A DNA stretch of 32,704 nucleotides from Lachnospiraceae bacterium. GTDB taxonomy: Bacteria > Bacillota > Clostridia > Lachnospirales > Lachnospiraceae. Below the pieces are notes generated by a model. That model was not told the DNA's origin and made no database searches. It saw only the letters and a list, made by a program, of their open reading frames with translations. The translations under genes and the position numbers were made by a program. The stretch covers positions 1-32,704 of the forward strand of contig JAGAFR010000077.1 of the NCBI GenBank assembly GCA_017612555.1. The letters are read 5' to 3'. Shown piece after piece: positions 16,296 to 31,369 of the stretch. The stretch's first letter is position 1. Every line of letters begins with the position of its first letter.

Positions 16296-18185
16296 TCAAT
16301 AGGAATCAAACGGTTCGCATTGCTCCGGCAGAGCCAGGGCCAGCATTCTTCCGTCCTTCCTGTACATGAGCCAGTTGCGGCACAGAAAATCACATGCCGA
16401 CTCTATCTCCTCATGGGAATAAGTCATTCCAAGCACCTCAAAGACCTTCTTCTCGGAGGCGATCTCCTGCGTCAACGCGTACATTTCTCTCATTGCACCC
16501 TCAAGACGAAATACCTTCTTAAATTCATATCTTGTATCTCTTATTATCGTGCAATCGTCCGACTCTGTCTGTATAAGACTCTTTTTCAGCGCGGAATCGG
16601 CGATCCATTCTTCTCTTGCGCGGCTCAGTCCGGCGTAGCATTCTTCATGACGCTCGATATCGGGACTGCCCAGATAATTGGCGGTCCTTAACGAAAACTC
16701 CTCATCGGGATCCGCAGCTCTGTCGATCTCCCTTGCCAGTATCGTATGTACGCCGTAGGTATCGTGATCTTCATAAAAAACGCTGTTTCTGACAAGCATC
16801 ATGCAGGTGAACCCCGTCGAAGGCTGGAAATGATGGATATGCCTCATCAGTTCTATCATATCGTCGTACCAGGATGCCTTCTCACCGGGCAGTGCGTACA
16901 TCAAGTTCCAGAACAGCCTCACGCCGTATTTCTTCGCGTATTTAAGACACGCGAGCTGATCTATGACCTTCGCTCCCTTATTCATGTGCTTAAGCATATC
17001 ATCCGACAGAGACTCTATTCCCGGCTGCAGATAAATAAAACCATTATGCTTCAGAACCCGCATATCCCTGTCGGTCATATTTGACTTACACTCACCGACA
17101 AACCGAAGATGCCTGCGGTCATCAGGCGCCTCTTCCGGCAGTCTTTTGATAAATCCGTGATCCAGGATACAGTCTGCAAACAGGATGTAGTTAACGCCAT
17201 ATCTTGCCGCAAGTTCCTTCGCCTCGCTCCATATCCTCTCATCCGTCTTGGGTCTGTAATGTATCGACTCGTCCGAAAGGTGAAGTCCGCAGAATCTGCA
17301 CCTGCCCTTCTGTCCCCACCAGCAGCCGCGGGATGATTCCATGACAAGCCATCTTTTCTCGTTAGCAAACTCGTCACGACTGACCTGCTCAAAGTATTCG
17401 GAAAAATCCGGTATCGGGGAATCATTCAGATCTTCAAGACATCTGTTTACAACAGGGGCTCCCGCAACATGAAACCACGGATGCTCCGTCTTAAGCCTCT
17501 CGGTCTTACCGTCGATTATCAGGCGGCACCCCTTTCCCAGAGCCCCGTCGCCTTCACCGGTAAAAACATAATCCAGGGAAGGTATCCGCTGCGCATAAGC
17601 TGCTGCCACTCCTCCGGTGCAGCATGAACCGCCCATTATGGTAACGACACCCGGATCTCTTTCCTTCAGCCTCTTAAAAAGAGCGAACGACGCATTCCTC
17701 TGCTGTGTCATTACGGAGCTTCCGACTATCTTCGGGCGCCGCATCAATATCTCATCCGCAGTATCGTCAAGGAATCTCTCTGTTCTCGGTACCAGCTCAT
17801 TCCACAACTCCATGACTTTCTCATGATAGACCTCAGATTTGTATATCCTGCCATCCCTGGCTTTCATACGGTCAACCTTAAGACTTATGGATCTGAGCAC
17901 GTCCTCTGCCCTTTGTTGTGGAGTAAAATCGGTAAATGCGGCAAAGAGCAACTCCCATGCGGACAGATACGGCTCCAGCATGTTATCAGCCTCCTCATAC
18001 AGCTCTTCACCTATTGCTTTTACATATTTATGCGATGCATAGATGACCTCATTGGAAAGACCCTCACCGGTAAGATCCGATTTAAGAAGCCCAAGCGCAA
18101 GAGAAGGATTGAGCCAGGTATAAGGCATTTGCACCAGGACCACATCAGCCTGTTTTATTTCAATATCAGTATTCAGACCATTCAT
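16296..18185 (-). CDS. RiPP-maturation B12-binding radical SAM C-methyltransferase (rSAM_ocin_1-like)
   Basis: This 629-aa enzyme has an N-terminal cobalamin-binding-type region (about residues 140-215, IMGGSCCTGG and FTGEGDGAL). Its radical SAM domain has cluster ligands C288, C296 and C299 (CX7CX2C in RGCWWGQKGRCRFCGLH). That CWWG..C.FCG signature is characteristic of RiPP-maturation radical SAM C-methyltransferases found with NHLP precursors. It would transfer methyl groups to unactivated carbons of the core peptide, using methylcobalamin and S-adenosylmethionine. It is the last gene behind the three precursor genes, 84 bp after precursor C, with an apparent terminator in between. Expression is therefore probably lower than that of the precursors. 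Class is confident; the methylated residues are unknown. Confidence 0.9.
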   Translation of the reverse strand: MNGLNTDIEIKQADVVLVQMPYTWLNPSLALGLLKSDLTGEGLSNEVIYASHKYVKAIGEELYEEADNMLEPYLSAWELLFAAFTDFTPQQRAEDVLRSISLKVDRMKARDGRIYKSEVYHEKVMELWNELVPRTERFLDDTADEILMRRPKIVGSSVMTQQRNASFALFKRLKERDPGVVTIMGGSCCTGGVAAAYAQRIPSLDYVFTGEGDGALGKGCRLIIDGKTERLKTEHPWFHVAGAPVVNRCLEDLNDSPIPDFSEYFEQVSRDEFANEKRWLVMESSRGCWWGQKGRCRFCGLHLSDESIHYRPKTDERIWSEAKELAARYGVNYILFADCILDHGFIKRLPEEAPDDRRHLRFVGECKSNMTDRDMRVLKHNGFIYLQPGIESLSDDMLKHMNKGAKVIDQLACLKYAKKYGVRLFWNLMYALPGEKASWYDDMIELMRHIHHFQPSTGFTCMMLVRNSVFYEDHDTYGVHTILAREIDRAADPDEEFSLRTANYLGSPDIERHEECYAGLSRAREEWIADSALKKSLIQTESDDCTIIRDTRYEFKKVFRLEGAMREMYALTQEIASEKKVFEVLGMTYSHEEIESACDFLCRNWLMYRKDGRMLALALPEQCEPFDSY

Positions 18186-18269: not shown

Positions 18270-18584
18270 TTACTTAAAGGATGCGTTAGCTCCACAAGCA
18301 TTCCCCACGCAACAATGCCCCTGACACATACCACCCGCCATTGACTGCAGGTCTTCTTCCGAGAGTTCTTCGCCGGCCATCGGTGGCAGAAGGAATGTTG
18401 CCTGATACGAAGGATCTTCCTCAATGATACGGATCTTGTAATCCGCAGGAATCTCCTTGCCCGTAGCCTTGGATATGGTTGCATTGGGATCTGCAACAAG
18501 TTCCTTTCTGAAAGCCTCATCCGTGATAGCTTTCTGAACCAATTCCTGATAGCTCTTTTCCATTTCTTCCTGTGTCCAGCTCAT
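18270..18584 (-). CDS. NHLP-leader RiPP precursor C (Cys-rich core)
   Basis: This 104-aa precursor has a long nitrile-hydratase-like (NHLP) leader: WTQEEMEKSYQELVQKAITD at the start, ELVADPN mid-leader and LSEEDLQSMAGG at the end. The GG at residues 84-85 marks the expected C39-peptidase cleavage site. The predicted 19-residue core is MCQGHCCVGNACGANASFK, with four cysteines and the CX4CG motif shared by all three precursors. The leader is very similar to that of precursor A (18998-19312), indicating recent duplication. AAGGAGG lies about 8 nt before the ATG. It is the third and last precursor before the terminator hairpin. Confidence 0.93.
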   Translation of the reverse strand: MSWTQEEMEKSYQELVQKAITDEAFRKELVADPNATISKATGKEIPADYKIRIIEEDPSYQATFLLPPMAGEELSEEDLQSMAGGMCQGHCCVGNACGANASFK

Positions 18585-18613: not shown

Positions 18614-18961
18614 TTATGATGCGTGAGCACCGCATACATCAGCAAGACAATCTCCTCCGCCGATAGCTGCTCCGCAGATAGACAAGATCAGCGCAAAGGA
18701 TATTCCGCCCGCCATGTTTGAAAGATCATCCTGCGACAGTTCTTCGCTGATAAGATCGGGTATAACAAACGTTGCGGAATAATTCGGATCCTGCTCTACG
18801 GCCTTTACGGTGAAGCCGTCCGGAAGCTTTTCTCCCGCTATCTTTTCAATGGCAGCATTGGCATCGGATAACAGTTCTTCTCTGAACTTCTTATCCGTTG
18901 CGGCTTTTTTCTGTACCTGTGCATAAAGCTTATCGAGTTCTTCCCTGGTCCATTCTTTCAT
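18614..18961 (-). CDS. NHLP-leader RiPP precursor B (longer hydrophobic core)
   Basis: This 115-aa precursor has an 86-residue NHLP leader (starting MKEWTREELDKLYAQVQKKA, ending DLSNMAGG) that is clearly more diverged than the leaders of A and C. The predicted 29-residue core starts ISFALILSICGAAIGGGDC and ends LADVCGAHAS. It is hydrophobic, Gly-rich and has cysteines at core positions 10, 19 and 24; the last two form the shared CX4CG motif. The long aliphatic segment resembles the epimerised or methylated stretches of other NHLP products, so it may be the preferred substrate of the radical SAM enzymes. That is inference. The start is supported by AAAGGAG about 11 nt upstream. Confidence 0.93.
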   Translation of the reverse strand: MKEWTREELDKLYAQVQKKAATDKKFREELLSDANAAIEKIAGEKLPDGFTVKAVEQDPNYSATFVIPDLISEELSQDDLSNMAGGISFALILSICGAAIGGGDCLADVCGAHAS

Positions 18962-18997: not shown

Positions 18998-19312
18998 CTA
19001 TTTAGGGGTGTTCTTACCACATTTAAATACGGGACATGAATCGCCGTGACAGATACCGCCGGCAATACTCTTAAGATCATCCTCCGAAAGATCCTCGCCG
19101 GCAAACGGAGGCAGCAAAAATGTAGACTGATAAGATGGATCATCCTCTATGATACGGATCCTGTAGTCCGCAGGAATGCTCTTTCCGGTAGCCTTGGATA
19201 TAGCTGCATTCGGATCAGCCACAAGTTCCTTACGGAAAGCCTCATCGGTTACGGCCTTCTGCATCAGATTCTTATATATACTGTCCATTTCTTCCTGTGT
19301 CCATCTTTCCAT
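18998..19312 (-). CDS. NHLP-leader RiPP precursor A (Cys-rich core)
   Basis: This is the first gene of the precursor transcript; the product is 104 aa. The NHLP leader (MERWTQEEMDSIYKNLMQKA at the start, EDLSEDDLKSIAGG at the end) ends in a GG site at residues 85-86. The predicted 18-residue core is ICHGDSCPVFKCGKNTPK. It matches precursor C in layout ([IM]C[HQ]G, then C, then CX4CG). It has a very strong Shine-Dalgarno (AAAGGAGG about 11 nt before ATG). A promoter with the cluster's direct-repeat element lies 40-75 bp upstream. The peptide would be modified by the neighbouring radical SAM enzymes and exported by the NHLM transporter. Confidence 0.93.
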   Translation of the reverse strand: MERWTQEEMDSIYKNLMQKAVTDEAFRKELVADPNAAISKATGKSIPADYRIRIIEDDPSYQSTFLLPPFAGEDLSEDDLKSIAGGICHGDSCPVFKCGKNTPK

Positions 19313-19351: not shown

Positions 19352-19386
19352 ATAGTATCAAATGAAGTGGGACAAAAGTGGGACAA
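19352..19386 (-). promoter_or_regulatory. Activator-type promoter of the precursor operon with 11-bp-period direct repeat
   Basis: On the minus strand two TTGTCCC units (complements of GGGACAA at 19380-19386 and 19369-19375) are repeated with an 11-bp period, then exactly 11 bp separates the second from TACTAT (19352-19357). No TTGACA-like -35 exists at 17 bp, as expected for an activator overlapping the -35. The same arrangement precedes the exporter operon at 29556-29590. Response regulators with OmpR/SARP-type winged helices commonly bind direct repeats of this period, so the cluster's regulator (29645-30421) is the likely binder. Confidence 0.75.
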
Positions 19387-19398
19387 AATACCTTTTTT

Positions 19399-20730
19399 TT
19401 ATGAGATTTTGAAATATTTTTCCGGTATACGACGAAGATACCCTCCCTTATGGATCATCTGCATTTTTCCGCGTATCATTTCGAGAACGAATCCACTCAC
19501 TCCCAACCGGTCTCCTATCTCTGTCAGTGATATCCCGTTCTGTGTGAGCATCGATACGCTTTTGATGAACATATTGTCTCCGGTCATGGTCAGTTCCGAA
19601 GCATCTCCGGTAAATACCGCCTTGTTCCCGTCAGTCTTAACGGATACACCGTGGGAAAGCAGGAGCATATCATCATTTTTGATCTCGGCCGAAGCACATT
19701 CACCCATGAGTCTGTTTGCGGCCTCTTTGAAGGAGCGCTCATCGGTAAAGAACACCTTATCATATATCCTCTCTCCCGTTGGAAAATCATCGCACGGGAT
19801 CTCCGGCTCCTCATAAACGATGCTCTTTTCAGTCATGTTCACACGCAGTCCCGCAAGGCAGGATATACTGTAGCCCACTCCGTCTGCTCCATCCTGCCTG
19901 GCCCTTCCCGATAAAGAATAGCGATTCACCGATTCGGGATTGTTGGGAAGCAGCTCTGTCTCTTCAAGCTCCTCCGGCGAGAATTCCGACATGATCTTGT
20001 AGAACTGTTCCTTAGTCCTGATCGATATCCTTATTGCCGCATTCTCTTGCTCGCTTTTTTCCATTGATGAGATAAAAGCCTTTAATCTCCCGGGATCTCT
20101 TTCCGCCACGGCAGTAGTCGTCTGCGGTATATGTCCGAGTATATCGTGATAATCTTTGATGAAAAGCTCGTAATCGGGATTATCAAAAGGCTCTGTCGCA
20201 AAATAACACGCCCCTGTTACCGCAGCTTCTCCTATGATCTCCTTCGCCGCGTGCAGCACGCCTTTCCACAATGCGGCATTTTCATCCGTATACCTGAACA
20301 GTCCCGATAAACCGGGGGCATCAAAGCCGCAGAACGGACAGCCCACACTGCATCCACGGGCCAGTTCAAATACTATCGGAAAATACCTGATATTGTTGTG
20401 AAGTCTTATAAGCCTGTTTTCTACACACATCCGGTTTCTTGTGATACGTCCGACCTCGTACATATCCCTGCTGACGTATTTATCACGCTCAAGCCGGCTG
20501 TCCGTTTCCTCTCCGATCCTTTTTGCCTTGGGAAGGTATATACCAAAGTACGGGTTTTCGGATCGATCGGCTATGCTCATCTTCCCGATGAGTTCCATAG
20601 CCTCATCCGCTTCAATATCTACTCTGATGCGTTCGAGCACTGTGCGAGTATCCGATGCCAGATCGCGGGCAAAATCCGGATCCACGGAAGTGCACTCATA
20701 CAGTCTCTTTATCACCGCCCACGACGCCAT
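19399..20730 (-). CDS. Radical SAM RiPP amino-acid epimerase (PoyD-like)
   Basis: The radical SAM motif of this 443-aa enzyme is C127-C131-C134 in ARGCSVGCPFCGFDAPG. This matches the CSxGCxFCG pattern of the PoyD-type RiPP epimerases. The first 110 residues are family-specific and probably bind the leader. Further Cys residues downstream (in SISCLAGLR, IPCDDF and GECASAE) include candidates for the hydrogen donor that completes L-to-D inversion. A helix-turn-helix-like tail (NGISLTEIGDRLGVSGFVLE) is notable. It lies 3 nt after the SPASM enzyme and directly upstream of the precursor promoter, with no terminator between, so readthrough into the precursors is possible. Epimerase assignment is by signature; substrates are unknown. 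Confidence 0.78.
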   Translation of the reverse strand: MASWAVIKRLYECTSVDPDFARDLASDTRTVLERIRVDIEADEAMELIGKMSIADRSENPYFGIYLPKAKRIGEETDSRLERDKYVSRDMYEVGRITRNRMCVENRLIRLHNNIRYFPIVFELARGCSVGCPFCGFDAPGLSGLFRYTDENAALWKGVLHAAKEIIGEAAVTGACYFATEPFDNPDYELFIKDYHDILGHIPQTTTAVAERDPGRLKAFISSMEKSEQENAAIRISIRTKEQFYKIMSEFSPEELEETELLPNNPESVNRYSLSGRARQDGADGVGYSISCLAGLRVNMTEKSIVYEEPEIPCDDFPTGERIYDKVFFTDERSFKEAANRLMGECASAEIKNDDMLLLSHGVSVKTDGNKAVFTGDASELTMTGDNMFIKSVSMLTQNGISLTEIGDRLGVSGFVLEMIRGKMQMIHKGGYLRRIPEKYFKIS

Positions 20731-20733
20731 ATC

Positions 20734-22053
20734 TTACGCCTCTGCTTTCATCTTGTGCTCATAATGCAGCTCAAGCAGATCGTCGAGATGATCCCTGAAG
20801 TAAGAACAGCAGTCTCTGTTTCCTCCATCCATCAGGTTCTTGAGCCTTATCTTGTGACAACCGCCGTCGCACACAGGGAAATAAAAACACTCCTTACACT
20901 CAGGAGAATCAAGATAGGAGCAACCCACCATACTCCTTGCTATCAGCGCGTTGTTCCAGTTCGTCATATCGTCTATACGCCCGACCACCATCTCCGGGAT
21001 CCCCACGTCATCCCAGCACTTATACAGTTCTCCGTCGGGCCCTACCACATAGGCGCATCTCTTGGTAAGTGTACATCCGAACAGGGAAAGCTTCGGGATC
21101 AGGGGCATCGCGCTGATATCATCATTCTCCGCCAGATCGGCAACGAATTGTCCCGTTAGTGAAGAGTCAAAGAAGCAGCTCGCGTCTGGGTGTCCGTCAC
21201 CTTTAACATATCCGGGATACACTGTTATCCCCTCTCCGAATTTATCGGGATATCTGTCCTTTATGAGTGTATAGACGTCCTTGAATTCATCCCTGTTCCT
21301 CATATCGATGTTGACGCGGATATGTACCTTGCCCTTATAGTCGGAAGCCATAAGCTTATCCAGGTTATCAAGTATCACATCAAAGGAGCCCTTACCGCTT
21401 ACCTGATACCGGCGGCTGTCGTGAGTTTCCTTATTCCCATCAAGGGTTATCTGGATCATCGATATGTTCAGATCGTTCAGATCCTTTATTATATCTTCCT
21501 TCAGAAGGTACCCGTTCGTCACGAGCAGTGCATCGTATTTGCGTCCCTTTTCCCTGAGCCTGCGATCTATACTCCTGATCCTGTCGATGGCAAGAAGCGG
21601 TTCTCCTCCATACCATGTGATAAAGAGCTGATCCTGTCTATTATGCATATCAATAAAATCGAGAAGTTTATCCTCCACTTCCTCTGTCATCGGCAAACCC
21701 GTCCGGTTTCCTTCGAAGCAGTATGAACAGTTGAAGTTACAATTCCTCGTCACTGCTATCGTAAGGAGCAGCGTTCTCGTAACATAGTTGCCGCTTATGC
21801 GTTTCATCTTTATGATATTAAAGAAGTCATCATCCTGGGTATCCTCTACGATGAAGCCTCCTCTGCGAAGCGTGATGTACAGACCCGGGTCACCTGAGAA
21901 GTCGAAATCACCAGGAGATTTGCTTATCTTATCGATCATCTCAACGGCTTCATCCTCTATCTTAAGGAAAAATCCCGAGGCGGAATTATAGAGAAGCCAT
22001 CCGTTCCTTTTTGACTTGAAAAAATGACTGTAACGCGACCACTTCATAGTCAT
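20734..22053 (-). CDS. Radical SAM/SPASM peptide maturase
   Basis: This 439-aa enzyme has an N-terminal leader-binding-like region (about residues 1-90) and the radical SAM CX3CX2C at C105, C109 and C112 (TRNCNFNCSYCFE). The radical SAM core includes TWYGGEPLL. The C-terminal SPASM domain, with auxiliary Fe-S ligands, shows CAYVVGPDGELYKCW and ECKECFYFPVCDGGC. SPASM enzymes of this type install Cys-carbon thioether or carbon-carbon crosslinks. The Cys-rich cores with a shared CX4CG are plausible thioether substrates; this is inferred. Two starts are possible (ATG 22053, 4 nt after GGAGG, or ATG 22047, 10 nt after). The gene lies 1 nt after the GNAT gene and 3 nt before the epimerase gene. Confidence 0.9.
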   Translation of the reverse strand: MTMKWSRYSHFFKSKRNGWLLYNSASGFFLKIEDEAVEMIDKISKSPGDFDFSGDPGLYITLRRGGFIVEDTQDDDFFNIIKMKRISGNYVTRTLLLTIAVTRNCNFNCSYCFEGNRTGLPMTEEVEDKLLDFIDMHNRQDQLFITWYGGEPLLAIDRIRSIDRRLREKGRKYDALLVTNGYLLKEDIIKDLNDLNISMIQITLDGNKETHDSRRYQVSGKGSFDVILDNLDKLMASDYKGKVHIRVNIDMRNRDEFKDVYTLIKDRYPDKFGEGITVYPGYVKGDGHPDASCFFDSSLTGQFVADLAENDDISAMPLIPKLSLFGCTLTKRCAYVVGPDGELYKCWDDVGIPEMVVGRIDDMTNWNNALIARSMVGCSYLDSPECKECFYFPVCDGGCHKIRLKNLMDGGNRDCCSYFRDHLDDLLELHYEHKMKAEA

Positions 22054-22054
22054 T

Positions 22055-22963
22055 CTACCTCCATGTTAAAACCATCCGTTTATCACTGCTTTCTCTGATG
22101 CTCTCAGAAAAAACATTTCTGATAAAAGCGAGCATCGGTCGGTTATCGGCCATCACCTTTGCCACTCCCCTGTCGTAAGATGACGCAAGCCTCCTCAGCA
22201 TATATCCTGCGAAAAATACACCTGTGGCTTTCCTTCTTCCGTCGGATATCACATATAATCTTGCGATCTCAATGCAGCCCTCTTCCTTATCTCTGCAGAT
22301 CACCCAGCCTATTACCTCATCCTTTTTTTTGTCTATGAGGAACAGACTGTTATCCTTGTTCTGCACAGTACCGTCAAACGGGCTCAAAGAGCGCATCAGC
22401 TCATCCCCTCCGGCGAGCATTGCCTCAACCATACCGCGGCGGGCTTCATCGATATCCGTACATCTTATAAGCTCAAGGTTCCCTCTTTGAAGGAATTCTT
22501 CACCGCAATACTTGAATCTCGGCTGAGCACTTATCATTTTTTTCAGATCGATTTCAAAATTATGACAGAGGACCTCGGCCTTTGCTGTTATATCCTTTAA
22601 ACCTTTGCAAACCTTGAAGTACGGATCGGCACCATCTCTTTTTTCCATATGGTATTCCCATATTACACTTGAGAGTCGCTCTTCTTTTCTTGCCTCACGG
22701 ATCAACGCTTCAAGCAGCATTCTGATATTGGAAATACCTCTGTGCTCCGGCACAAGATATACGATATGGATCCTGCAAAAACCGGTACCGTCCGGAATGT
22801 ACCCGGCTATCATTCCCGTCGCAGTATTATCCGCGAAGCTTTTTATGACTATCATCTGCTCATCGCGTATATCTTCAAACTCCCGGGGAATATCAAGCAG
22901 GAAGTCATCATACAGTGCTTCTATTGCCTGCCTGTCTCTTACCCTTTCCGTTGTTTCATGCAT
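22055..22963 (-). CDS. Tandem GNAT-family acetyltransferase-like protein
   Basis: This 302-aa protein appears to contain two GNAT folds. The first covers about residues 10-150, with IHIVYLVPEHRGISNIRMLL as the acetyl-CoA-binding beta4/alpha3 segment. The second covers about 155-302, with IEIARLYVISDGRRKATGVF. GNAT enzymes acylate amines of small molecules or peptides. Its position inside the NHLM operon, between the second ABC gene (20-nt gap) and the SPASM gene (1-nt gap), suggests a role in peptide modification such as N-terminal or lysine acylation, or self-protection. Both roles are inferred. Precursor A has core lysines and precursor C one near its end. Confidence 0.8.
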   Translation of the reverse strand: MHETTERVRDRQAIEALYDDFLLDIPREFEDIRDEQMIVIKSFADNTATGMIAGYIPDGTGFCRIHIVYLVPEHRGISNIRMLLEALIREARKEERLSSVIWEYHMEKRDGADPYFKVCKGLKDITAKAEVLCHNFEIDLKKMISAQPRFKYCGEEFLQRGNLELIRCTDIDEARRGMVEAMLAGGDELMRSLSPFDGTVQNKDNSLFLIDKKKDEVIGWVICRDKEEGCIEIARLYVISDGRRKATGVFFAGYMLRRLASSYDRGVAKVMADNRPMLAFIRNVFSESIRESSDKRMVLTWR

Positions 22964-22983
22964 AGCTGATGCTTCCCTGTTCT

Positions 22984-25566
22984 TTAGCTTATCTGCCGCT
23001 TCGCAAGTTCGTAGAACATTCCCTTCTTCGCCATGAGTTCATCATAACTTCCCTGTTCCGCAATGGTTCCCTTATCCATCACTATTATCCTGTCACAATC
23101 CTTTATCGTTGACAGTCTGTGGGCTATCACGACCTTGGTGGCATCCAGTCCTTCCAGAGTCTCCACGACCTGCCGCTGCGTCATGTTATCAAGAGCAGAG
23201 GTCGCTTCATCAAGGAATATGATCCTGGGCTTACCCACTATAGCTCTGGCTATCAGTATCCTCTGACGCTGTCCACCCGATATGGTGCCTGCGCCCTCGG
23301 ATATAACGGTATGGATCCCCATGGGCATACGACGTATGTCATCGGCAAGTCCCACCTCGTCTATTGTTTCTTCAACACGCTTCATGTCAACAAACGGCGA
23401 TGTGATCGTGATATTGTCTCTTATGCTTCCGGACAGGAGTCCTCCTTCCTGTAGCACCACACCGAATTTCTTTCTCAGTTCTCTCTTATCGAGTTCGTCA
23501 ATATCCTTATTGTCATAGTATATTTTTCCGATCTGGGCCTTCTCGAATCCCAGCAGAAGCTTAAGCAGTGTGGATTTTCCGCAGCCTGATGCCCCGACGA
23601 TCGCTACATACTCGCCGGGATTTACATGGAGGCTGAAATTCTTTATTATGGGCTCCCTGTTGGGCGAATATGCAAACGTTACGTTGTCCACCTCGATCTC
23701 TCCCCTAAGTTCTCCCGGAACTTTTGCCTCCTCACTGTTTTCCGGCAGGGCATCAAGGATCGGCTTGGCATTATCGTATGCAGGTATTACCTGATTGACG
23801 TTAAACAACTGGCTTGCTATAGTCAGCATCGCCGTCGAAAAAGAACCGAAAGCAGCCATGAAGGCGGAGAACTTTCCGATGGACAGGTTCACCTTCTTAT
23901 CTATCATCATGTAGTACAGCACCATTGAAAACAGGAGTGGCGCCGACTGGGTTATCGTAGTCACCATATTGAAGAGCCGCTGCTTCTTTTCGTTGGTCTG
24001 CTGGGAGCTGACCATCTTTTCCGTATACCGAAGCAGTGCTCTGTCTTCCGTGCCGGATATCCTTATCTTGGAGATTCCCGATACGAACTGGAACAGTCTC
24101 GATCCCGCCTCTATGTCGGTCTTGACCTGTTTCTTCTCATATTTGATGTGGAACCTTGCCATTACGATGAGCAGAATGACTACCGCAAAAGTCATAAGTA
24201 CCGCCGTCTGTGTCAGGTCTTTGGAGTATTCGTGCATCCTGATCAGATACAGCAGGGAGAATAATGACGAGAATATCGTATCCATGATCCCGTTTGTAAG
24301 GACAGAGTATACCGTTGCAAGTCCCATCGCTCTCTGTCCCAGATCCGCAGAATCATAATCCCTGTAAAAGCTCTCCGGCAGATTGAAAAGGCGATCGAAA
24401 GCGGCAGACTGTACCGCATACTTCATTGAGTTCATGGAACGGAAAGTCGCGAAATTCTTCACGATTGTAAACACCACATTACCCATGGAACAGGCAAGGA
24501 GTATGGCACCGATCTGCAGGAGCGCAGGCGTGTTTCCCATGGGGATGAACTTATCATATGCCTGCTCGTTCATGTAGGGTATCAACAGCCCGGTAAGCGT
24601 TCCGACAAGAGCAAGCAGCAGAAGTCGCACAATATCAGATGTATAGACCTGCCTCATGCCGAATCCGATCACGTCAAAAACATTCAGCTTCTTTTTCGGG
24701 AAAGGCGGGTATGCCATATAAGCATTGACCTTAAGGCCCGCGGCGACTTTTGCGTTAACCTTTTTCTTTCTGCCGGTTACGGGATCGTATAAAAGATAGC
24801 TGCAGGGTCCGTTAGGCACGCAGACCACAGGGCTTTGATCCTTCTCGGTAAAGGCAAGGAAAGTTCCGCAGTCCTGACGGTACCATTTTCCCTCAAGTAC
24901 TATCTCCCTCACGGCAAAATGTGAAACACGGGCTATGTCCTTTATATCGAACCTCCTGCCGCTGCAGGTCCGGATCTGTTCAATGGGGGCTATATCCATC
25001 TTAAGGTGGCTGCACATAAAAGTCATGGCATCATACAGTGGATTGCCGGTCTCTGTAAGATCGTCGGTCTTATCCGCTGCGGAACTGTTGTCAAAAACAT
25101 CTATTACGATATCCTTGAGCCGTTCCCGGGTGCGAAGCCTCTCCTTCGAAATGGCGTACATGTATACGTCGTCCTTGACCATTTTGAGCTCATACCGCTC
25201 TATCACGGCTTCGACAAACGCCTTCTTTACATCCTTATCATCTGAGGTCTCCATAAAAAGACCGGCGGACGAAGCGAAGTCGGTAATCTTTTCATCACTA
25301 AAGCTGTCAAGGCCGGTCTCAAACTCCGCCTCATCAAGCGCTATGAAGACAAATCTCCATTCGACACCATCAGGGCGCTTCTCGTAAAATCCCGGGATCT
25401 CTTTATCCGTACCGAAAGATCCGAGAAGTATCCTGCGACCGTTCTTTCCTTCCCTGCGGGGCACGATATATACAAGCATCTCCCCCTTGGTCACCCTGTA
25501 TGAACAGTCCGAGCTTTCCGTATAATAGACGTTTCCGCCCTTTATTTTTTCCCTGTTTTGTTCCAT
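22984..25566 (-). CDS. NHLM bacteriocin-system ABC transporter, ATP-binding protein without peptidase
   Basis: This 860-aa half-transporter matches the second ABC protein of NHLM systems. A long N-terminal region (about residues 1-290) lacks a C39 protease. About six membrane helices follow (about 310-590). The ATPase has Walker A GASGCGKST (about 655), signature ISGGQRQR, Walker B IIFLDEAT and the H-loop VIAHRLS. It starts 5 nt after the stop of the C39-containing ABC gene. Paired with that protein, it probably forms a heteromeric exporter of processed NHLP peptides. The N-terminal extension may recognise leader or cargo; that is inference. Confidence 0.92.
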   Translation of the reverse strand: MEQNREKIKGGNVYYTESSDCSYRVTKGEMLVYIVPRREGKNGRRILLGSFGTDKEIPGFYEKRPDGVEWRFVFIALDEAEFETGLDSFSDEKITDFASSAGLFMETSDDKDVKKAFVEAVIERYELKMVKDDVYMYAISKERLRTRERLKDIVIDVFDNSSAADKTDDLTETGNPLYDAMTFMCSHLKMDIAPIEQIRTCSGRRFDIKDIARVSHFAVREIVLEGKWYRQDCGTFLAFTEKDQSPVVCVPNGPCSYLLYDPVTGRKKKVNAKVAAGLKVNAYMAYPPFPKKKLNVFDVIGFGMRQVYTSDIVRLLLLALVGTLTGLLIPYMNEQAYDKFIPMGNTPALLQIGAILLACSMGNVVFTIVKNFATFRSMNSMKYAVQSAAFDRLFNLPESFYRDYDSADLGQRAMGLATVYSVLTNGIMDTIFSSLFSLLYLIRMHEYSKDLTQTAVLMTFAVVILLIVMARFHIKYEKKQVKTDIEAGSRLFQFVSGISKIRISGTEDRALLRYTEKMVSSQQTNEKKQRLFNMVTTITQSAPLLFSMVLYYMMIDKKVNLSIGKFSAFMAAFGSFSTAMLTIASQLFNVNQVIPAYDNAKPILDALPENSEEAKVPGELRGEIEVDNVTFAYSPNREPIIKNFSLHVNPGEYVAIVGASGCGKSTLLKLLLGFEKAQIGKIYYDNKDIDELDKRELRKKFGVVLQEGGLLSGSIRDNITITSPFVDMKRVEETIDEVGLADDIRRMPMGIHTVISEGAGTISGGQRQRILIARAIVGKPRIIFLDEATSALDNMTQRQVVETLEGLDATKVVIAHRLSTIKDCDRIIVMDKGTIAEQGSYDELMAKKGMFYELAKRQIS

Positions 25567-25571
25567 ATACC

Positions 25572-27716
25572 CTATATATTCCGAATAAGATTCTTATAAT
25601 GCCCTTCTATTTGGGCAAGTTCCTCATGAGTTCCTCTTTGGACCACCTTTCCCTGACTCATCACTATGATCTCATCGCAGTCCCTTATCGCGGACAGACG
25701 ATGGGCCACGATGATGCAGGTGCAGCCTCTCTTCTTTATATTGTCTATGACCTTTTTTTCCGTTATGGGGTCAAGTGCACTGGTCGCTTCATCCATCACT
25801 ATGATGCTGGGATTGGTGGCAAGCGCCCTTGCTATCTCGAGTCTCTGTTTCTGTCCTCCCGACAGTTCGCTGCCGCCCTCCGACAGCTCATAGTCATACG
25901 CACCCGGCTTGGAAGTGATCACGTCATGTATGCAGGCATCCTTTGCGGCATTTATCATATCCGCATCATCAATGTATCTGTTCCACATGGTGAGGTTATC
26001 TCTTACCGTTCCCGAGAAGATGGTTATCTCCTGGCTCACCGTGGATACGCTTGAAAAGAACGTCTCTACAGGAATGTCCTTTGAATCAACGCCGTCAAAC
26101 CAAAGCTGCCCGGACCAGGGTATATAAAGCCCCGAGCAGATCTTGGCCACTGTTGACTTGCCGCTTCCCGACTCTCCAACGAATGCTATGGATTGACCGC
26201 TTTCAAGGTTGAATTCAAAGTCTTCTATGAGGGGATTTTCCAATACGTTATAGCCAAAGGATATTCCCTCGAGCGTGATCTGCCCCGTAAGCTTCGTATC
26301 GATGATCTGCTTTCCGACGTTGCTGAACCTTACATCCTCCTTGTACTTCATCACGTCGTCCACGCGGTTCATATCAGCCTTCATTGTCTGTATCCTTTGT
26401 ATGAAGCCTGCAAGTGAGCTGACCGGCGCGGAAAACGAAGACATAAGTCCGGTATATGCCACAAGCATTCCGGATGTCATATCTCCTCTTATAACAAGTA
26501 TGCCTCCTACAACGAGCGTTGCCACTGTCAGCAGCTGGTTCGACACCGACGGTATCGCGTTGAGTAATTCCTGTCTCAGTCCTACTACCTGCTCCATCTG
26601 TATGTTTTTGGCATAGTTACCCAGCAGACGGCTTATAAACTCATTCTCACTTCCGGACGCTTTGAGCGTGTCCGTTACGGACAGTCCCGAAAAGAGGGTG
26701 CCCACAAGCTTTCCCTGTTCCTGCTGCGACCTGATGGAAACATCCTTGATAGCACGTGCGCACGATGCCATGAGAACAAGATTGACCGTCGTGAACAGCA
26801 GTCCGATCGCCGTCAGAAGCGGAGAGTATATGAACAGAAGTATCAGATAGAAGGCCGCTACGAAACAGTTGAGAATGTTCTCGGCAAGATCGCTCGTTAA
26901 GAACATATTGACATTATTGTTATTCGTAACACGTTGTGAAAGATCTCCCGCGTATCTTTGATCGAAAAAGCTGATGGGAAGTCTTAAGAGATGTGCGAGC
27001 ATCTTCTGGGAACTTATAAGCATCATCTTTTTCTGCAGGCTTATAAGCGTTCTTCCCCGGAACCACGAAAGAAGGAACTTGACGATGAAGGTGCCCAGCA
27101 TTACGGCCGTAAGCGCGGGCATCCACTCCCATTGTCCGTCAAGCAGGACAGTATCTATGAAGATCTGAGAAAATATCGGTATCAGAAGCCCGGGCAGCAC
27201 AAGGAACAGTCCCATGACGACAAGTGCCGCCAGCACACTGTACTCACTCTTGAGTCTGTCCATTATGAAGGCCAGCAATGTGCTTGGCTTCTTTGATCTT
27301 TTGAATTCAGAGGTGGGCTCGAAGGTCAGGACTATACCCGTATAACACTGGTCAATGTCATTTAACGTAAGCTTCCTTCTGCCTATGGCGGGGTCGTTTA
27401 TTATGTAGTAATCGCCCTTACGGCCTTCCCACACCACGAAGTGATTGAAATTCCAATAGAGTATGCACGGCACCGGCAGTTTAAACAGACCATCAAGATC
27501 CTTTCTCAGGCCATGCACTTCGAGACCGAACTTTTTGCCGGCACGTACTATATTGTTGGCGTTACAGCCGTCTCTGGATACGCCGGTTTCTATGCGCATC
27601 TGCTCAAGCGGAACATAACGTCCATAGTAACCCAGTATCATGGAAAGAGAAGCAGCTCCGCATTCGGTAGCTTCCATCTGATAGACGGTAGGAGTCTTTG
27701 CGTAGTGCCTCGCCAT
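25572..27716 (-). CDS. NHLM bacteriocin-system ABC transporter with C39 leader peptidase
   Basis: The N-terminal C39 peptidase of this 714-aa protein has the catalytic Cys19 in YQMEATECGAASLSMILG, His92 in NHFVVWEG and Asp108 in IINDPAIG, so it appears active. It would cut the precursors after GG. Membrane helices occupy about residues 165-440. The ATPase has GESGSGKST (about 505), ELSGGQKQR and IIVMDEATSALD. Its ATG overlaps the stop of the HlyD-like gene by one base (TAATG). Together with that adaptor and the second ABC protein it forms the dedicated export machine for the three NHLP precursors. Confidence 0.95.
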   Translation of the reverse strand: MARHYAKTPTVYQMEATECGAASLSMILGYYGRYVPLEQMRIETGVSRDGCNANNIVRAGKKFGLEVHGLRKDLDGLFKLPVPCILYWNFNHFVVWEGRKGDYYIINDPAIGRRKLTLNDIDQCYTGIVLTFEPTSEFKRSKKPSTLLAFIMDRLKSEYSVLAALVVMGLFLVLPGLLIPIFSQIFIDTVLLDGQWEWMPALTAVMLGTFIVKFLLSWFRGRTLISLQKKMMLISSQKMLAHLLRLPISFFDQRYAGDLSQRVTNNNNVNMFLTSDLAENILNCFVAAFYLILLFIYSPLLTAIGLLFTTVNLVLMASCARAIKDVSIRSQQEQGKLVGTLFSGLSVTDTLKASGSENEFISRLLGNYAKNIQMEQVVGLRQELLNAIPSVSNQLLTVATLVVGGILVIRGDMTSGMLVAYTGLMSSFSAPVSSLAGFIQRIQTMKADMNRVDDVMKYKEDVRFSNVGKQIIDTKLTGQITLEGISFGYNVLENPLIEDFEFNLESGQSIAFVGESGSGKSTVAKICSGLYIPWSGQLWFDGVDSKDIPVETFFSSVSTVSQEITIFSGTVRDNLTMWNRYIDDADMINAAKDACIHDVITSKPGAYDYELSEGGSELSGGQKQRLEIARALATNPSIIVMDEATSALDPITEKKVIDNIKKRGCTCIIVAHRLSAIRDCDEIIVMSQGKVVQRGTHEELAQIEGHYKNLIRNI

Positions 27717-29506
27717 TACGTGTTGCTCTCCTTCTTCTTGTTCGGATCCGCATCAAGCTTTTCCTTGATATAGGGGATTATCATGCTGATGGGTGCCTTC
27801 TCTTCTATTACCGTATCGGTAGCAACTATGGTTCCCGGATCTATCGTTATCACGGCACCCTTCTTACTCGACCATTTATAGCCGCTTGCCGTTGAAGGGT
27901 CTTTTTCAAGCTCACATACAACTTCAACGACTGCACCTTTCTGAAGGAAAGTGTTTACCAATGCCGAGTTGCCGAGCTGATTCATCATCTCCTCCTCAGA
28001 GGTGACATAGTTCGCTACGTCAGTAACCACAGCCTTCATATGACCGTATTCCTCTTTATTTATGGTCGAAGGATATACTTTGACTTCCATGCCGGGCTTT
28101 ATCTTTCTTCCGTCCGAAGCAGGAACATAACATATAACCACATCTTCATCGTATACCACGGTGTCATCAAATTGATCTTTAACGGAAGTCTTGGCAGCAC
28201 CGGCATTCACCCTTACCTCGTGGTTCTTCTGTGATATGCTGCACACGGCGGAGCCCTGCTGAACAGGATTTCCTATGCTGATGTTAAGGTCAACTATGTA
28301 GCCGCTCAATGTGGATCTGATCTCGGTGTCATCAAGCTGCTCCCTGGCCTTTCTTATCTGTTGATCGAGGCTATCAAGTGCCGTGGCTTTGGCACTCTCA
28401 AACTGTTTCTCCAATGCCTCATACTGATTGCCTACCCCCAAGCCCTCGGATGAAACCTGTACTTCAAGCTGTGCGACTGCATCCTCGAGGCTTCGCAGCT
28501 GAGACAGCTGCGTATTGTAATCATTTAATGCAAGGTTATAATTGTCGGACTGCTGAGAGGCGAAGGTCTGCTTGGCAAGCCTTAATTCCTCAGTGTAGAT
28601 ATATGCCTGTGCCGTAGTGTAAAAACAGCTTTCGGCACTTCCGAGATCATTGCTTCTCCTGTCGACCTCAGCCTGTAATTCGCTCTCCTGTGATTTTAGC
28701 TGAGCAAGGGCTTTCTTGGCATCATCGCGCTCACCTTCAAGAGAAGTATCTCCTTCATCGATCGCTTTGTTCAGCTCCTTTATCTCCCGTTCCAGCTGCT
28801 TCATCTTCTCATCATTTTGAGCTTTGAAATCAACAAGAGTGGTCTTTGCAGATTCATACAAAGTACTGGCTCCGCTGTACCTTGATGACGCTGTCTGATA
28901 TTCCAGCTGTTCCTTGGTGTCCGTACCGGGGTTCATGGTCGCATAGAACATATTGTGCGCAAGTTGCATCTTGCCCTGCGCATCGTTTGTTTTTTTCTGC
29001 TGCTCTGCAAGCTGTTTTCTGCGCATCGCAAGCATTTTCTCACTGCCCGTCAGATTTGCGCTTATCGTAAGAAGCTGTGCCTTGGTGTCAATAAGTCCCT
29101 GATTATCACCGGTCGCTATATCGCCTTCCGAGGTGAGGGTAACTGCCTCGACTTTTGATTTTCTGTCAGTGAGGAGTTCTATGTTCTCCTGTGCTTTCTC
29201 GGTGTTGTACCTTGCTATTACCTGACCTTCGGTTACCGCGTCACCCTTATCGACGTAGATCTCTTCCACTATACCCGCAGTCTTGGAATACATTGTGTGT
29301 ATCCCTCCCTTGCTCATATAGATACCCGAAGTCTGTACGTCTATGGGGAGCCTGCCGAGAATAGACCAGATCAATAAGACACTCAGTATGATTACACCGC
29401 CCAACGCCGCAAGCCAGAAGCTCGGAGATATGATCCTTATCATAGCGTCAAGCTGTTCCGGAGAAGCCTGCTTGTCCAATGCCGCTTTTCTGTATATTAT
29501 CGCCAT
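27716..29506 (-). CDS. NHLP bacteriocin-system secretion protein (HlyD-like adaptor)
   Basis: This 596-aa membrane-fusion-type protein has a short cytoplasmic N-terminus and one transmembrane helix (about residues 31-52, LAALGGVIILSVLLIWSILG). A biotinyl-lipoyl-like half-domain follows (GIVEEIYVDKGDAVTEGQVI). A long Gln/Lys/Glu-rich coiled coil (about 95-395) is next, then the second lipoyl half (RSTLSGYIVDLNISIGNPVQ) and a beta-barrel C-terminus. It links the ABC exporter to the cell envelope. It is the first gene of the export/modification operon, with an operator-bearing promoter 50-85 bp upstream, and its stop overlaps the C39 ABC start. Confidence 0.93.
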   Translation of the reverse strand: MAIIYRKAALDKQASPEQLDAMIRIISPSFWLAALGGVIILSVLLIWSILGRLPIDVQTSGIYMSKGGIHTMYSKTAGIVEEIYVDKGDAVTEGQVIARYNTEKAQENIELLTDRKSKVEAVTLTSEGDIATGDNQGLIDTKAQLLTISANLTGSEKMLAMRRKQLAEQQKKTNDAQGKMQLAHNMFYATMNPGTDTKEQLEYQTASSRYSGASTLYESAKTTLVDFKAQNDEKMKQLEREIKELNKAIDEGDTSLEGERDDAKKALAQLKSQESELQAEVDRRSNDLGSAESCFYTTAQAYIYTEELRLAKQTFASQQSDNYNLALNDYNTQLSQLRSLEDAVAQLEVQVSSEGLGVGNQYEALEKQFESAKATALDSLDQQIRKAREQLDDTEIRSTLSGYIVDLNISIGNPVQQGSAVCSISQKNHEVRVNAGAAKTSVKDQFDDTVVYDEDVVICYVPASDGRKIKPGMEVKVYPSTINKEEYGHMKAVVTDVANYVTSEEEMMNQLGNSALVNTFLQKGAVVEVVCELEKDPSTASGYKWSSKKGAVITIDPGTIVATDTVIEEKAPISMIIPYIKEKLDADPNKKKESNT

Positions 29507-29555
29507 TTTATGCCAACCTTGCCCTTTTTACCTGAGATTGTATTTACGGTTAGAC

Positions 29556-29590
29556 ATTGTAACACATAAAACGGGACAAAAGCGGGACAA
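29556..29590 (-). promoter_or_regulatory. Activator-type promoter of the export/modification operon with 11-bp-period direct repeat
   Basis: On the minus strand TTTGTCCCGCTTTTGTCCC is followed by exactly 11 bp and TACAAT (29556-29561). The two TTGTCCC units correspond to GGGACAA at 29584-29590 and 29573-29579, with an 11-bp period. The layout is the same, base for base in spacing, as at the precursor promoter (19352-19386). The element lies between the exporter operon and the divergent regulator gene, so it may also influence the regulator. Confidence 0.75.
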
Positions 29591-29609
29591 ACGGTTTATT
29601 TTTTTGGTT

Positions 29610-29638
29610 TTGTAATGCCTTATGTTTTAGGTTATACT
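29610..29638 (+). promoter_or_regulatory. Promoter of the regulator gene, probably giving a leaderless transcript
   Basis: TTGTAA (29610-29615), a 17-bp spacer and TATACT (29633-29638) are followed by only 6 nt before ATG 29645. Transcription would then start at or near the A of the start codon. No Shine-Dalgarno sequence precedes this ATG, which agrees with leaderless translation. Confidence 0.55.
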
Positions 29639-29644
29639 CTATCC

Positions 29645-30421
29645 ATGAATATTCTGTTGGTGGACGATGAACCACAAGTATTAAAACAAATGAAAAAGAT
29701 CGTTTCCGCTGCTGTCCCCGATTCCAACATATGGACAGCGGGCAACGGTAAAAAGGCTGTAGAACTCGTGGAAGAGGTTTATCCCGAAGTCGTATTCCTT
29801 GACATAATGATGCCGGGGCAGAACGGACTTGAAGTTGCAAAAGCCGTACAATCCGTAAATCCTCTGACGAACATCATCATGGTTACGGCACACGGGGAAT
29901 ATGCTCTTGATGCGCTCGATCTCTTCGTCAGCGGCTTTATATTGAAACCAGCGGATGAGGAGGGTATAAGACGCATGATGGCAAACCTCCGACATCCTGC
30001 TGCGGCGGTGCATAAGGGACTTTATGTCAGATGCTTTGGAAATTTCGAAGTCTTCAAGGACGGAGTCCCGATCAGATTTGAGCGAAGCAGATCCAAGGAA
30101 GTATTCGCTTATCTGGTTGACAGATGCGGCGCTGCCGTAAGCGTAAGCCAGATATGCGCCGCAATATGGGAGGACACTCAGGGAAAGAGTTCCAGCTATT
30201 GCCGTAAGCTTTTGCGAAACCTGTACAAAAGGTTCGAAGAGCTGGGGTACTCCGAGGTGCTCAGCTTCGACCGGAATTCCTATGCAGTCCTTACGGATAA
30301 GCTTCCGTGTGATTACTACAAAATGCTCAGAAGCGATCATCCAAGGAAGCATGTTTCGGAATACATGAACCAGTACAGCTGGGCCGAATATACCGCAGGA
30401 AGCCTGTCCGAACCCTCCTGA
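29645..30421 (+). CDS. Response regulator with SARP/OmpR-like winged helix; likely cluster activator
   Basis: This 258-aa protein has an N-terminal receiver (LLVDDEP, phospho-acceptor D53 in VVFLDIMMPGQNG, Thr in VTAHG, Lys in FILKPAD). After about residue 125 comes a winged helix resembling the DNA-binding part of SARP/BTAD proteins (CFGNFEVFKDGVPIRFERSR, VSVSQICAAIWED, KLLRNLYKRFEELG, then a beta hairpin). I chose ATG 29645 because it places the receiver's first strand at the N-terminus. The upstream ATG 29615 overlaps the promoter. No kinase gene is adjacent, so the partner is unknown; the hybrid kinases at 5.9-13.5 kb are candidates. The 11-bp-period repeats at 29573-29590 and 19369-19386 are its likely sites. 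It is followed after 42 bp by the HExxH protein gene. Confidence 0.9.
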   Translation: MNILLVDDEPQVLKQMKKIVSAAVPDSNIWTAGNGKKAVELVEEVYPEVVFLDIMMPGQNGLEVAKAVQSVNPLTNIIMVTAHGEYALDALDLFVSGFILKPADEEGIRRMMANLRHPAAAVHKGLYVRCFGNFEVFKDGVPIRFERSRSKEVFAYLVDRCGAAVSVSQICAAIWEDTQGKSSSYCRKLLRNLYKRFEELGYSEVLSFDRNSYAVLTDKLPCDYYKMLRSDHPRKHVSEYMNQYSWAEYTAGSLSEPS

Positions 30422-30463: not shown

Positions 30464-31369
30464 ATGGAAGAACTTCACGGAACCGAAGTGCTGACCCGGC
30501 TGGCAAAGGTGTATCAGCAGCTGTATATCGCACCGGGCCGGGACAAAACAAGCGAATATGATGATGTCGTAAAGAGAGGGCACGAAATATCCGAAGGGAG
30601 CCTGAGTCACTTTACAACAAGCGAAAAAGACAGTCTGGTATATGAGGATACTCCCGCAGGCAAGGTATGTGTGATAACCTTATATCACAGGCAGGATTTC
30701 GTTACATTCCTGCAGATAATGGCGGGGCGCTGCGAACTTACGGATATTCCCGACACTCAAGGTGCTTCCATAATAGACGGTGTAGCAAACTGGGAAAAGA
30801 TACGTGCCCATAAGGATGATTTTTACAAAGAAGAGAACGCAAAGGGAAATCCCTGCCCCGACTGGCCGGCCGAATTCAGGCGGTTTACTTCGGATAAAAA
30901 GAATTATCTTGATACTCTTATCGTGTTGTCAGTCGGACCATACAGCGGTGTAAGCGCAGACAGGATGGGACTGTCAGAGGACGAGTGGCTGCCTCTTTCC
31001 CACACGATCAGAAAGCACCACGAATGCACGCACTTTATCTGTCGCAGGAAATATCCGGATCTGAAAGATGCGATATGGGACGAACTCGTGGCTGATGCAG
31101 TGGGTATCTACGCAGCATTTGATCATTTTGACCCACAGATGGAGAAAATCTTTCTCGGCATAGAGGGTGACCATTATACGAAAGGCCGGCTTGAAAACTA
31201 TGTCGAAGCTTCCTCCGACTCGGAAAAGCTTGTCAAGATCGAAGAAATGACAGGCAAGATCATACGGGTACTTGAACAGTTCGAAAAAATCACATCAGAT
31301 AATCCCTGCCCGGATCCCTATGATATAGCCATAATGCTCGAAGAGTCAGCATTTTCTCCTTTTGCATGA
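30464..31369 (+). CDS. Putative zinc metalloprotease (HExxH) of the RiPP cluster
   Basis: I do not recognise a named family for this 301-aa protein, but it has HECTH at residues 186-190. A DELVADAVG segment follows 16 residues later, with E207 as a candidate third zinc ligand, the gluzincin-like arrangement HExxH...E(x)xAD. There is no signal peptide or membrane helix, so it is cytoplasmic. It has an AGGGTGAG ribosome binding site and follows the regulator in the same direction, 42 bp downstream, apparently co-transcribed. Possible roles are leader trimming, degradation of mis-modified peptide or self-immunity; all are inferred. Its 3' end overlaps by 24 bp the convergent FeoB-associated gene. 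Confidence 0.72.
   Translation: MEELHGTEVLTRLAKVYQQLYIAPGRDKTSEYDDVVKRGHEISEGSLSHFTTSEKDSLVYEDTPAGKVCVITLYHRQDFVTFLQIMAGRCELTDIPDTQGASIIDGVANWEKIRAHKDDFYKEENAKGNPCPDWPAEFRRFTSDKKNYLDTLIVLSVGPYSGVSADRMGLSEDEWLPLSHTIRKHHECTHFICRRKYPDLKDAIWDELVADAVGIYAAFDHFDPQMEKIFLGIEGDHYTKGRLENYVEASSDSEKLVKIEEMTGKIIRVLEQFEKITSDNPCPDPYDIAIMLEESAFSPFA

Follow-up and report, generated by a model that had tools for sequence, protein, structure and literature searches.

Which protein reads a direct repeat that stands, at identical spacing, in front of both operons of one peptide gene cluster, and does it switch the two operons on together? This question is raised by a contig of a Lachnospiraceae bacterium (assembly GCA_017612555.1, contig JAGAFR010000077.1), of which positions 1 to 32,704 were analysed and are here called the window. 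The window encodes an antibiotic-like cluster for ribosomally synthesised and post-translationally modified peptides (RiPPs) with a precursor operon and an export/modification operon. We propose that a receiver-SARP response regulator belonging to the cluster, encoded divergently from the second copy, uses the repeats as its operator and activates both operons upon phosphorylation. We put the probability of this reading at about 0.82.

On the minus strand, TTGTCCC ACTT TTGTCCC ACTTCATTTGA TACTAT runs from 19386 to 19352 upstream of the precursor operon, and TTGTCCC GCTT TTGTCCC GTTTTATGTGT TACAAT from 29590 to 29556 upstream of the export/modification operon. At both promoters the conserved half-site is the 8-bp TTTGTCCC inside an 11-bp unit, giving the layout (TTTGTCCC-N3)x2, 8 bp, then TACTAT or TACAAT. 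The elements are as follows.

19366..19387, minus strand: operator 1, a 22-bp box of two 11-bp units (TTTGTCCC-ACT / TTTGTCCC-ACT); the same box is found in relatives
19352..19360, minus strand: extended -10 of the precursor promoter (TGA TACTAT), 8 bp from box to hexamer, no -35
29570..29591, minus strand: operator 2, a 22-bp box (TTTGTCCC-GCT / TTTGTCCC-GTT)
29556..29564, minus strand: extended -10 of the export/modification promoter (TGT TACAAT)

The epimerase stop codon and the first precursor gene are 86 bp apart, and operator 1 falls within this gap. An earlier note on this DNA had described the same operator at identical spacing in both promoters, and both sites read as it claimed. It had also found no -35 match, with which a sigma-70 scan agrees: neither -10 appears as the second hexamer of any listed promoter, and a cryptic -35 was rejected on this ground. 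Its account of the promoters was right in the repeats and the -10 hexamers and overlooked the TGN that extends both.

Repeats of this kind could be a matter of chance or low complexity. TTGTCCC by itself is frequent (6 copies in the window against 3.4 expected), and the same pattern is found singly in unrelated bacteria. In the host assembly (2,513,865 bases, 94 contigs, 89.7% complete), about 0.02 exact sites are expected by chance (our own arithmetic, uniform bases), against two seen. These two, both window operators, are the only sites at up to 1 mismatch, and the reversed control gives 0. Beyond them there are 0 sites at 1 mismatch and four at 2 mismatches; with up to 3 mismatches, 26 sites stand against 29 for the reversed pattern, which places the remainder at chance level. 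The repeat is thus not common in the host genome away from the cluster.

The regulator divergent from operator 2, together with a possible promoter of its own, is placed as follows.

29645..30421, plus strand: response regulator with a receiver, a SARP-type winged helix and the first part of a BTAD domain, divergent from operator 2
29610..29638, plus strand: possible regulator promoter TTGTAA-N17-TATACT, 9/12 consensus matches

Its receiver matches PF00072 (E 2.8e-22). D7, D8, D53, T81 and K101 are invariant in 20 aligned regulator sequences; we take D7 and D8 to be the acidic pocket, D53 the phospho-Asp, and T81 and K101 the receiver's Thr and Lys. With this receiver and these residues the protein is a response regulator. 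The predicted DNA-binding part aligns over its whole length with EmbR and AfsR, above any OmpR-type domain listed, and continues into BTAD-like helices, of which only about the first 40 residues are present. The structure prediction supports a SARP-type fold for the C-terminal half, which bears out the receiver plus SARP/OmpR-like winged helix of the earlier note. With the OmpR/PhoB family the regulator shares a receiver and a winged helix, and this family provides the first matches of the full-length model; the BTAD-like helices and the closer likeness to EmbR and AfsR set it apart. In Pfam terms, a SARP is PF00486 plus PF03704, according to PMC10663231. The winged-helix family PF00486 matches the window domain below cut-off (E 0.074) and 20 of 30 regulator-family members at E<=10 (best 2.6e-7); the BTAD family PF03704 is not among the 14 families matched by these 30 members at E<=10.

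In the regulator's possible promoter, 6 bp separate the -10 from the ATG at 29645, and a 65%-identical ortholog (locus L143, 4160-4210) has, by eye, a -10-like TATCAT similarly placed before its ATG. Because the -10 lies so close to the start codon in both, the regulator mRNA may be leaderless.

The geometry of the window promoters has a counterpart in Actinobacteria. According to PMC10936776, SARP promoters carry direct repeats 11 or 22 bp apart, with the 3' repeat 8 bp from the -10. At the afsS promoter, AfsR contacts the first 8 bp of each repeat and leaves the last 3 untouched; the upstream repeat overlaps the -35, and sigma region 4 rests on two protomers, the side-by-side AfsR dimer replacing its -35 contact (PMC10936776). 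Some SARP sites have three repeats (PMC10972967), as do those of two relatives, L086 and L102. The window boxes fit every sequence feature of this rule: the 11-bp pitch, the 8 bp and the -35 place. With AfsR/afsS and PimR the system shares 11-bp direct repeats, 8 bp to the -10, a missing or poor -35 overlapped by the box, and a DNA-binding part aligned end to end with AfsR and EmbR. The window promoters differ in their half-site TTTGTCCC and their extended -10, and the regulator in the receiver at its front, its roughly 40 BTAD residues and its Firmicutes host.

Based on these features, the switch may work as follows. Phosphorylation of the receiver, by a kinase whose existence we infer, would place two regulator protomers side by side on the two 11-bp units, each reading one 8-bp half-site. 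The protomers would occupy the place where sigma region 4 would otherwise hold a -35 box, and the bound regulator would recruit sigma-A RNA polymerase to a promoter with only an extended -10. In this way, a single phosphorylation signal would jointly switch on the precursor operon (three peptides and a C-methyltransferase) and the export/modification operon (HlyD, both ABC proteins, GNAT, SPASM enzyme and epimerase).

Alternatively, the regulator could bind and repress, its box covering the -35 place until a signal arrives. A box at this place could block polymerase, and an extended -10 can function without a -35. Yet no -35 is present to block, and the gap between half-site and -10 peaks at a single length, which is the SARP activator spacing and would not be needed by a repressor. 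Repression is therefore rather unlikely, and activation remains our preferred reading. Bacillus promoters have a -16 motif, TRTG, and the bases preceding the -10 in sites of the window type (CCC sites, after the last three letters of TTGTCCC) resemble it (T 0.88, R 0.73, T 0.91, G 0.94).

Further evidence comes from other genomes. Searched against 84,980 species genomes, the pattern TTTGTCCC-N3-TTTGTCCC-N11-TANNNT returned 58 stretches. Among 31 of the genomes behind them that were tested, the regulator family (E<=1e-40) is found in 21 of the 23 that are clostridial, Firmicutes or mollicute by title and in 0 of 8 others; 15 further stretches lie outside this test, including L078 (Clostridiales) and L096 (Eubacteriales), both without TGN. 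The TGN, which is absent from the scan pattern, is present at 31/34 sites of regulator-positive genomes, 2/10 of regulator-negative ones and 0/15 of those outside the regulator test. This means that outside regulator-positive genomes only 2 of 25 sites have it, and the 8 unrelated genomes tested lack the regulator. Together with the assembly-wide counts and the reversed-pattern control, the TGN distribution led us to reject a chance origin, which we regard as barely credible.

Because the 31-genome contrast is confounded with taxonomy, the comparison was also done inside the window's family. There, 9 of 299 genomes carry the motif with N11-TANNAT when up to 1 mismatch is allowed; they have 12 sites in all, and the reversed pattern gives 3. 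The regulator is encoded in at least 49 of 150 family genomes (genera g1-g150 of the 299-genome set, judged from genus numbers; at most 17 candidates scored per genome), namely in 6/6 motif-positive and 43/144 other genomes (p 0.001); without the window's own genome the association is 5/5 (p 0.003). In 10 relatives, operator and regulator lie on one stretch.

The nearest relative, a Lachnospiraceae metagenome-assembled genome (MAG; G336, contig JAFTAP010000102.1), has a regulator 65% identical to that of the window. Together with it lie three sites of this layout and homologs of the window's two ABC exporters (40% and 37%). A 451-aa protein next to this regulator, with four matches in the window's genome (best 28% identical), is taken for a putative kinase by likeness to the kinase of L193. 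The CCC operator of L035 belongs to a sortase/pilus-like locus that encodes a kinase and a regulator of its own, the pilus family match being below cut-off. In L143 such an operator precedes an InlB-repeat protein, and in L193 large proteins with signal-peptide-like starts (by eye), one of them a beta-helix, near a PF06580 kinase and the regulator. The idea that the operator is limited to NHLP clusters was rejected on these sortase/pilus-like, beta-helix, InlB-repeat and signal-peptide-like-start cases. Rather, the operator occurs with a widespread receiver-SARP family in rumen and gut Clostridia, before exporter, pilus-like and secreted-protein genes.

The identity of the two window promoters might also reflect recent duplication of one promoter cassette, with no maintained site; just two copies exist in the assembly, both in one cluster. 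However, the two regions differ outside the box and the -10, and ten chosen promoters, when aligned, keep the boxes, TG and -10 while their flanks diverge, which makes duplication very improbable.

Several observations weigh against our proposal. No kinase is encoded next to the window regulator, whereas relatives such as L035 and L193 have one nearby. The excess in the family scan is modest; G191, G211 and G318, three of the nine motif-bearing family genomes, look like chance sites, and G167, one of the six behind the 6/6 association, has its two sites, both lacking TGN, inside a duplicated stretch ahead of a DUF6514-like gene. The clostridial motif genomes G350 and G356 show no such regulator, and site and regulator are on separate contigs in G053, G097, G110 and G340 (MAGs are incomplete). 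Among 40 loci picked by the regulator alone, ignoring the motif, 26 have no recognisable site. Finally, 149,938 bases around 30 NHLM transporters, about 5 kb per locus, yielded one unconvincing site, a weak test because the window's own locus, among the 30, has its operators beyond its ~5 kb.

Some of these points would suit a different reader of the repeats, another response regulator or a one-component factor, with the receiver-SARP neighbour as a bystander: several genomes have the site away from any regulator of the window's family, and OmpR-type proteins generally bind direct repeats of about one helical turn, a similar pitch. Against this stand the site-regulator association within the family, the 10 relatives with both on one stretch, variants of the same layout near some other family members, and the clustering of the CCC label on the regulator tree (both described below). 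We consider a different reader unlikely, and the receiver-SARP protein remains the favoured one. Taken together, the observation of the earlier note is confirmed and its interpretation partly supported. The two-promoter regulon is upheld by the count of only two sites in an 89.7% complete assembly; across genomes, the operator is not private to the cluster. The search of related clusters gave the same layout with exporters in G336 and no convincing site in the 30 NHLM loci.

Three side observations concern these genomes. In L143 and L144 (both G336:C57), NHLM-type exporters lie beside partner-switching-like proteins (a SpoIIE phosphatase with Cache/HAMP, a STAS protein, STAS with an APH-like domain, and MatE with a weak HATPase match), and in L193 (8900-10549) a SpoIIE/HAMP protein adjoins the regulator. 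An Acholeplasmatales-labelled MAG (G337; L145, L146) encodes the regulator and, allowing up to 1 mismatch, has eight CCC-type sites that share the spacer ATG. Tandem CCAGTTTGTCCC arrays without TGN in Prevotella (L057, L069, L085) seem unrelated.

Is the layout shared by the regulator family beyond the CCC letters? We scanned the 40 regulator loci with a letter-free pattern: a 7-mer, its repeat 11 bp on with up to 1 mismatch, 8 bp, TGN and TANNNT. It matched 13 times in 690 kb (11 loci), compared with 2 matches in 321 kb taken from elsewhere in these genomes and 0-5 in ten shuffles. Among 11 same-genus loci there were 4 hits, which were confined to L044. When period and offset were freely varied, hits peaked at period 11 with a TG offset of 7-8 (18 and 17 hits), a scan that is not clean by itself because period 12 also gives 8-12 hits over offsets 4-9. 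About 9 of the 13 letter-free hits have a TGT core followed by varying letters. With a TTGT core, the 40 loci show a sharp gap peak at 11 (6/13 pairs, at most 1 at any other gap), and the 15 pairs at period 12 show no -10 peak. When gaps of 10-12 and up to 1 mismatch are allowed, 14 of the 40 loci have TTGT-core sites, 15 in number (11 with gap 11, 9 with TG, 13 intergenic). Of the 11 same-genus loci, 4 have 8 such sites between them; two of these 8 overlap, both falling on the same place in L054. The 20 controls have 0. These counts are in part circular, the core having been derived from letter-free hits on the same loci; a family-wide scan is partly independent. In that scan, 35 of 299 genomes contain TTTGTN6TTTGTN11TGNTANNNT, at 65 sites altogether, and the reversed pattern gives 7 (summed by hand); in the 150-genome subset the regulator is encoded in 14/19 grammar-positive and 35/131 other genomes (p 1e-4).

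Near other family members, the layout carries TTTGT followed by GAC, TGC, AAC or TGG. Loci with several sites tend toward one triplet (GAC in L044, TGC in L252), and TTGCAAA occurs four times in L197. In the family-wide scan, the triplets are identical in 27 of 61 sites listed (our own count), an equality that the pattern does not require. With hand-assigned labels on a 33-regulator tree, where near-copies contribute to clustering, the CCC label needs 5 changes against 9.4 when shuffled (0/500 as low), and all labels together 18 against 21.3 (1/200 as low). GAC and TGG are not clustered (500/500 shuffles as low), and TGC and AAC gave 58/500 and 27/500. By eye, no triplet-to-residue code is visible in the recognition helix. 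We lean, with some reserve, towards an operator code in which the receiver-SARP family of gut Firmicutes shares (TTTGT-xxx-N3)x2 - N8 including TGN - TANNNT, the triplet xxx (CCC, GAC, TGC, AAC, TGG and others) being each regulator's specificity.

Some grammar sites stand out. G196 has 17, the most in one genome, with TTTGTTGC as the first unit in 10 of 13 sites listed. A TTTGTTCAYA class, with one site in the window's own genome (C55), may belong to another regulator; at C55:28815-28850, TTTGTTCATA stands twice with the same spacing and TGN, and similar sites occur in several other genomes. In two same-genus loci (L333 7336-9040, L334 6351-8020), a member of the regulator family lies beside exporter homologs and a small VTGGV/VNGGV peptide; a GAT/GAT site precedes the regulator's operon there only if two core mismatches are allowed. 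L332, a third same-genus export locus with the regulator family, has no site.

The genes that the two operators would control, and the gene after the regulator, are as follows.

27716..29506, minus strand: NHLM HlyD-type secretion protein, first gene past operator 2 (TIGR03794)
25572..27716, minus strand: export ABC transporter, putative first subunit (open reading frame; peptidase-like N-terminus by eye)
22984..25566, minus strand: NHLM ABC transporter subunit 2 (TIGR03797)
22055..22963, minus strand: GNAT acetyltransferase (Pfam)
20734..22053, minus strand: radical SAM/SPASM maturase, below the curated cut-offs of named SPASM families
19399..20730, minus strand: PoyD-type radical SAM epimerase, last gene before operator 1 (TIGR04517)
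18998..19312, minus strand: precursor peptide 1, NHLP leader (TIGR03793)
18614..18961, minus strand: precursor peptide 2, NHLP leader (TIGR03793)
18270..18584, minus strand: precursor peptide 3, NHLP leader (TIGR03793)
16296..18185, minus strand: B12 radical SAM C-methyltransferase (TIGR03975)
30464..31369, plus strand: DUF7005 protein, gene after the regulator (E 1.5e-60)

With three matches to TIGR03793 and one each to TIGR03794 and TIGR03797, all over cut-off, this is an NHLP-leader RiPP cluster. NCBIfam matches over cut-off cover the three precursors, the epimerase, the C-methyltransferase, the HlyD protein and ABC subunit 2. The reading frame at 25572-27716 is matched below cut-off by the second-subunit model. 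The order past operator 2 is HlyD-ABC1-ABC2-GNAT-SPASM-epimerase, and gene order suggests the limits of the two operons. The cluster shares its leader family, epimerase, C-methyltransferase and NHLM exporter with NHLP/proteusin-type clusters, from which its predicted control by a receiver-SARP protein sets it apart. In one search we found no paper joining proteusin, response regulator and promoter, and the literature, as far as it was covered, yielded no description of the operator or the regulator family.

For the cluster itself, the finding offers a testable switch, in which one regulator and two boxes would serve both operons. A fixed promoter grammar could make targets predictable without expression data, for a regulator family found in about a third or more of the sampled family genomes. 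Other gut bacteria have the layout next to related regulators, so that some possible target genes there can be predicted from sequence. The results suggest that activation of the SARP kind, studied in Streptomyces, may also be at work in Firmicutes of gut and rumen, where it is placed behind a receiver domain. If the operator code is true, the sequences of many genomes could be read for regulons of secreted proteins, pili and peptide clusters, and Actinobacteria and Firmicutes would have SARP-style activation in common.

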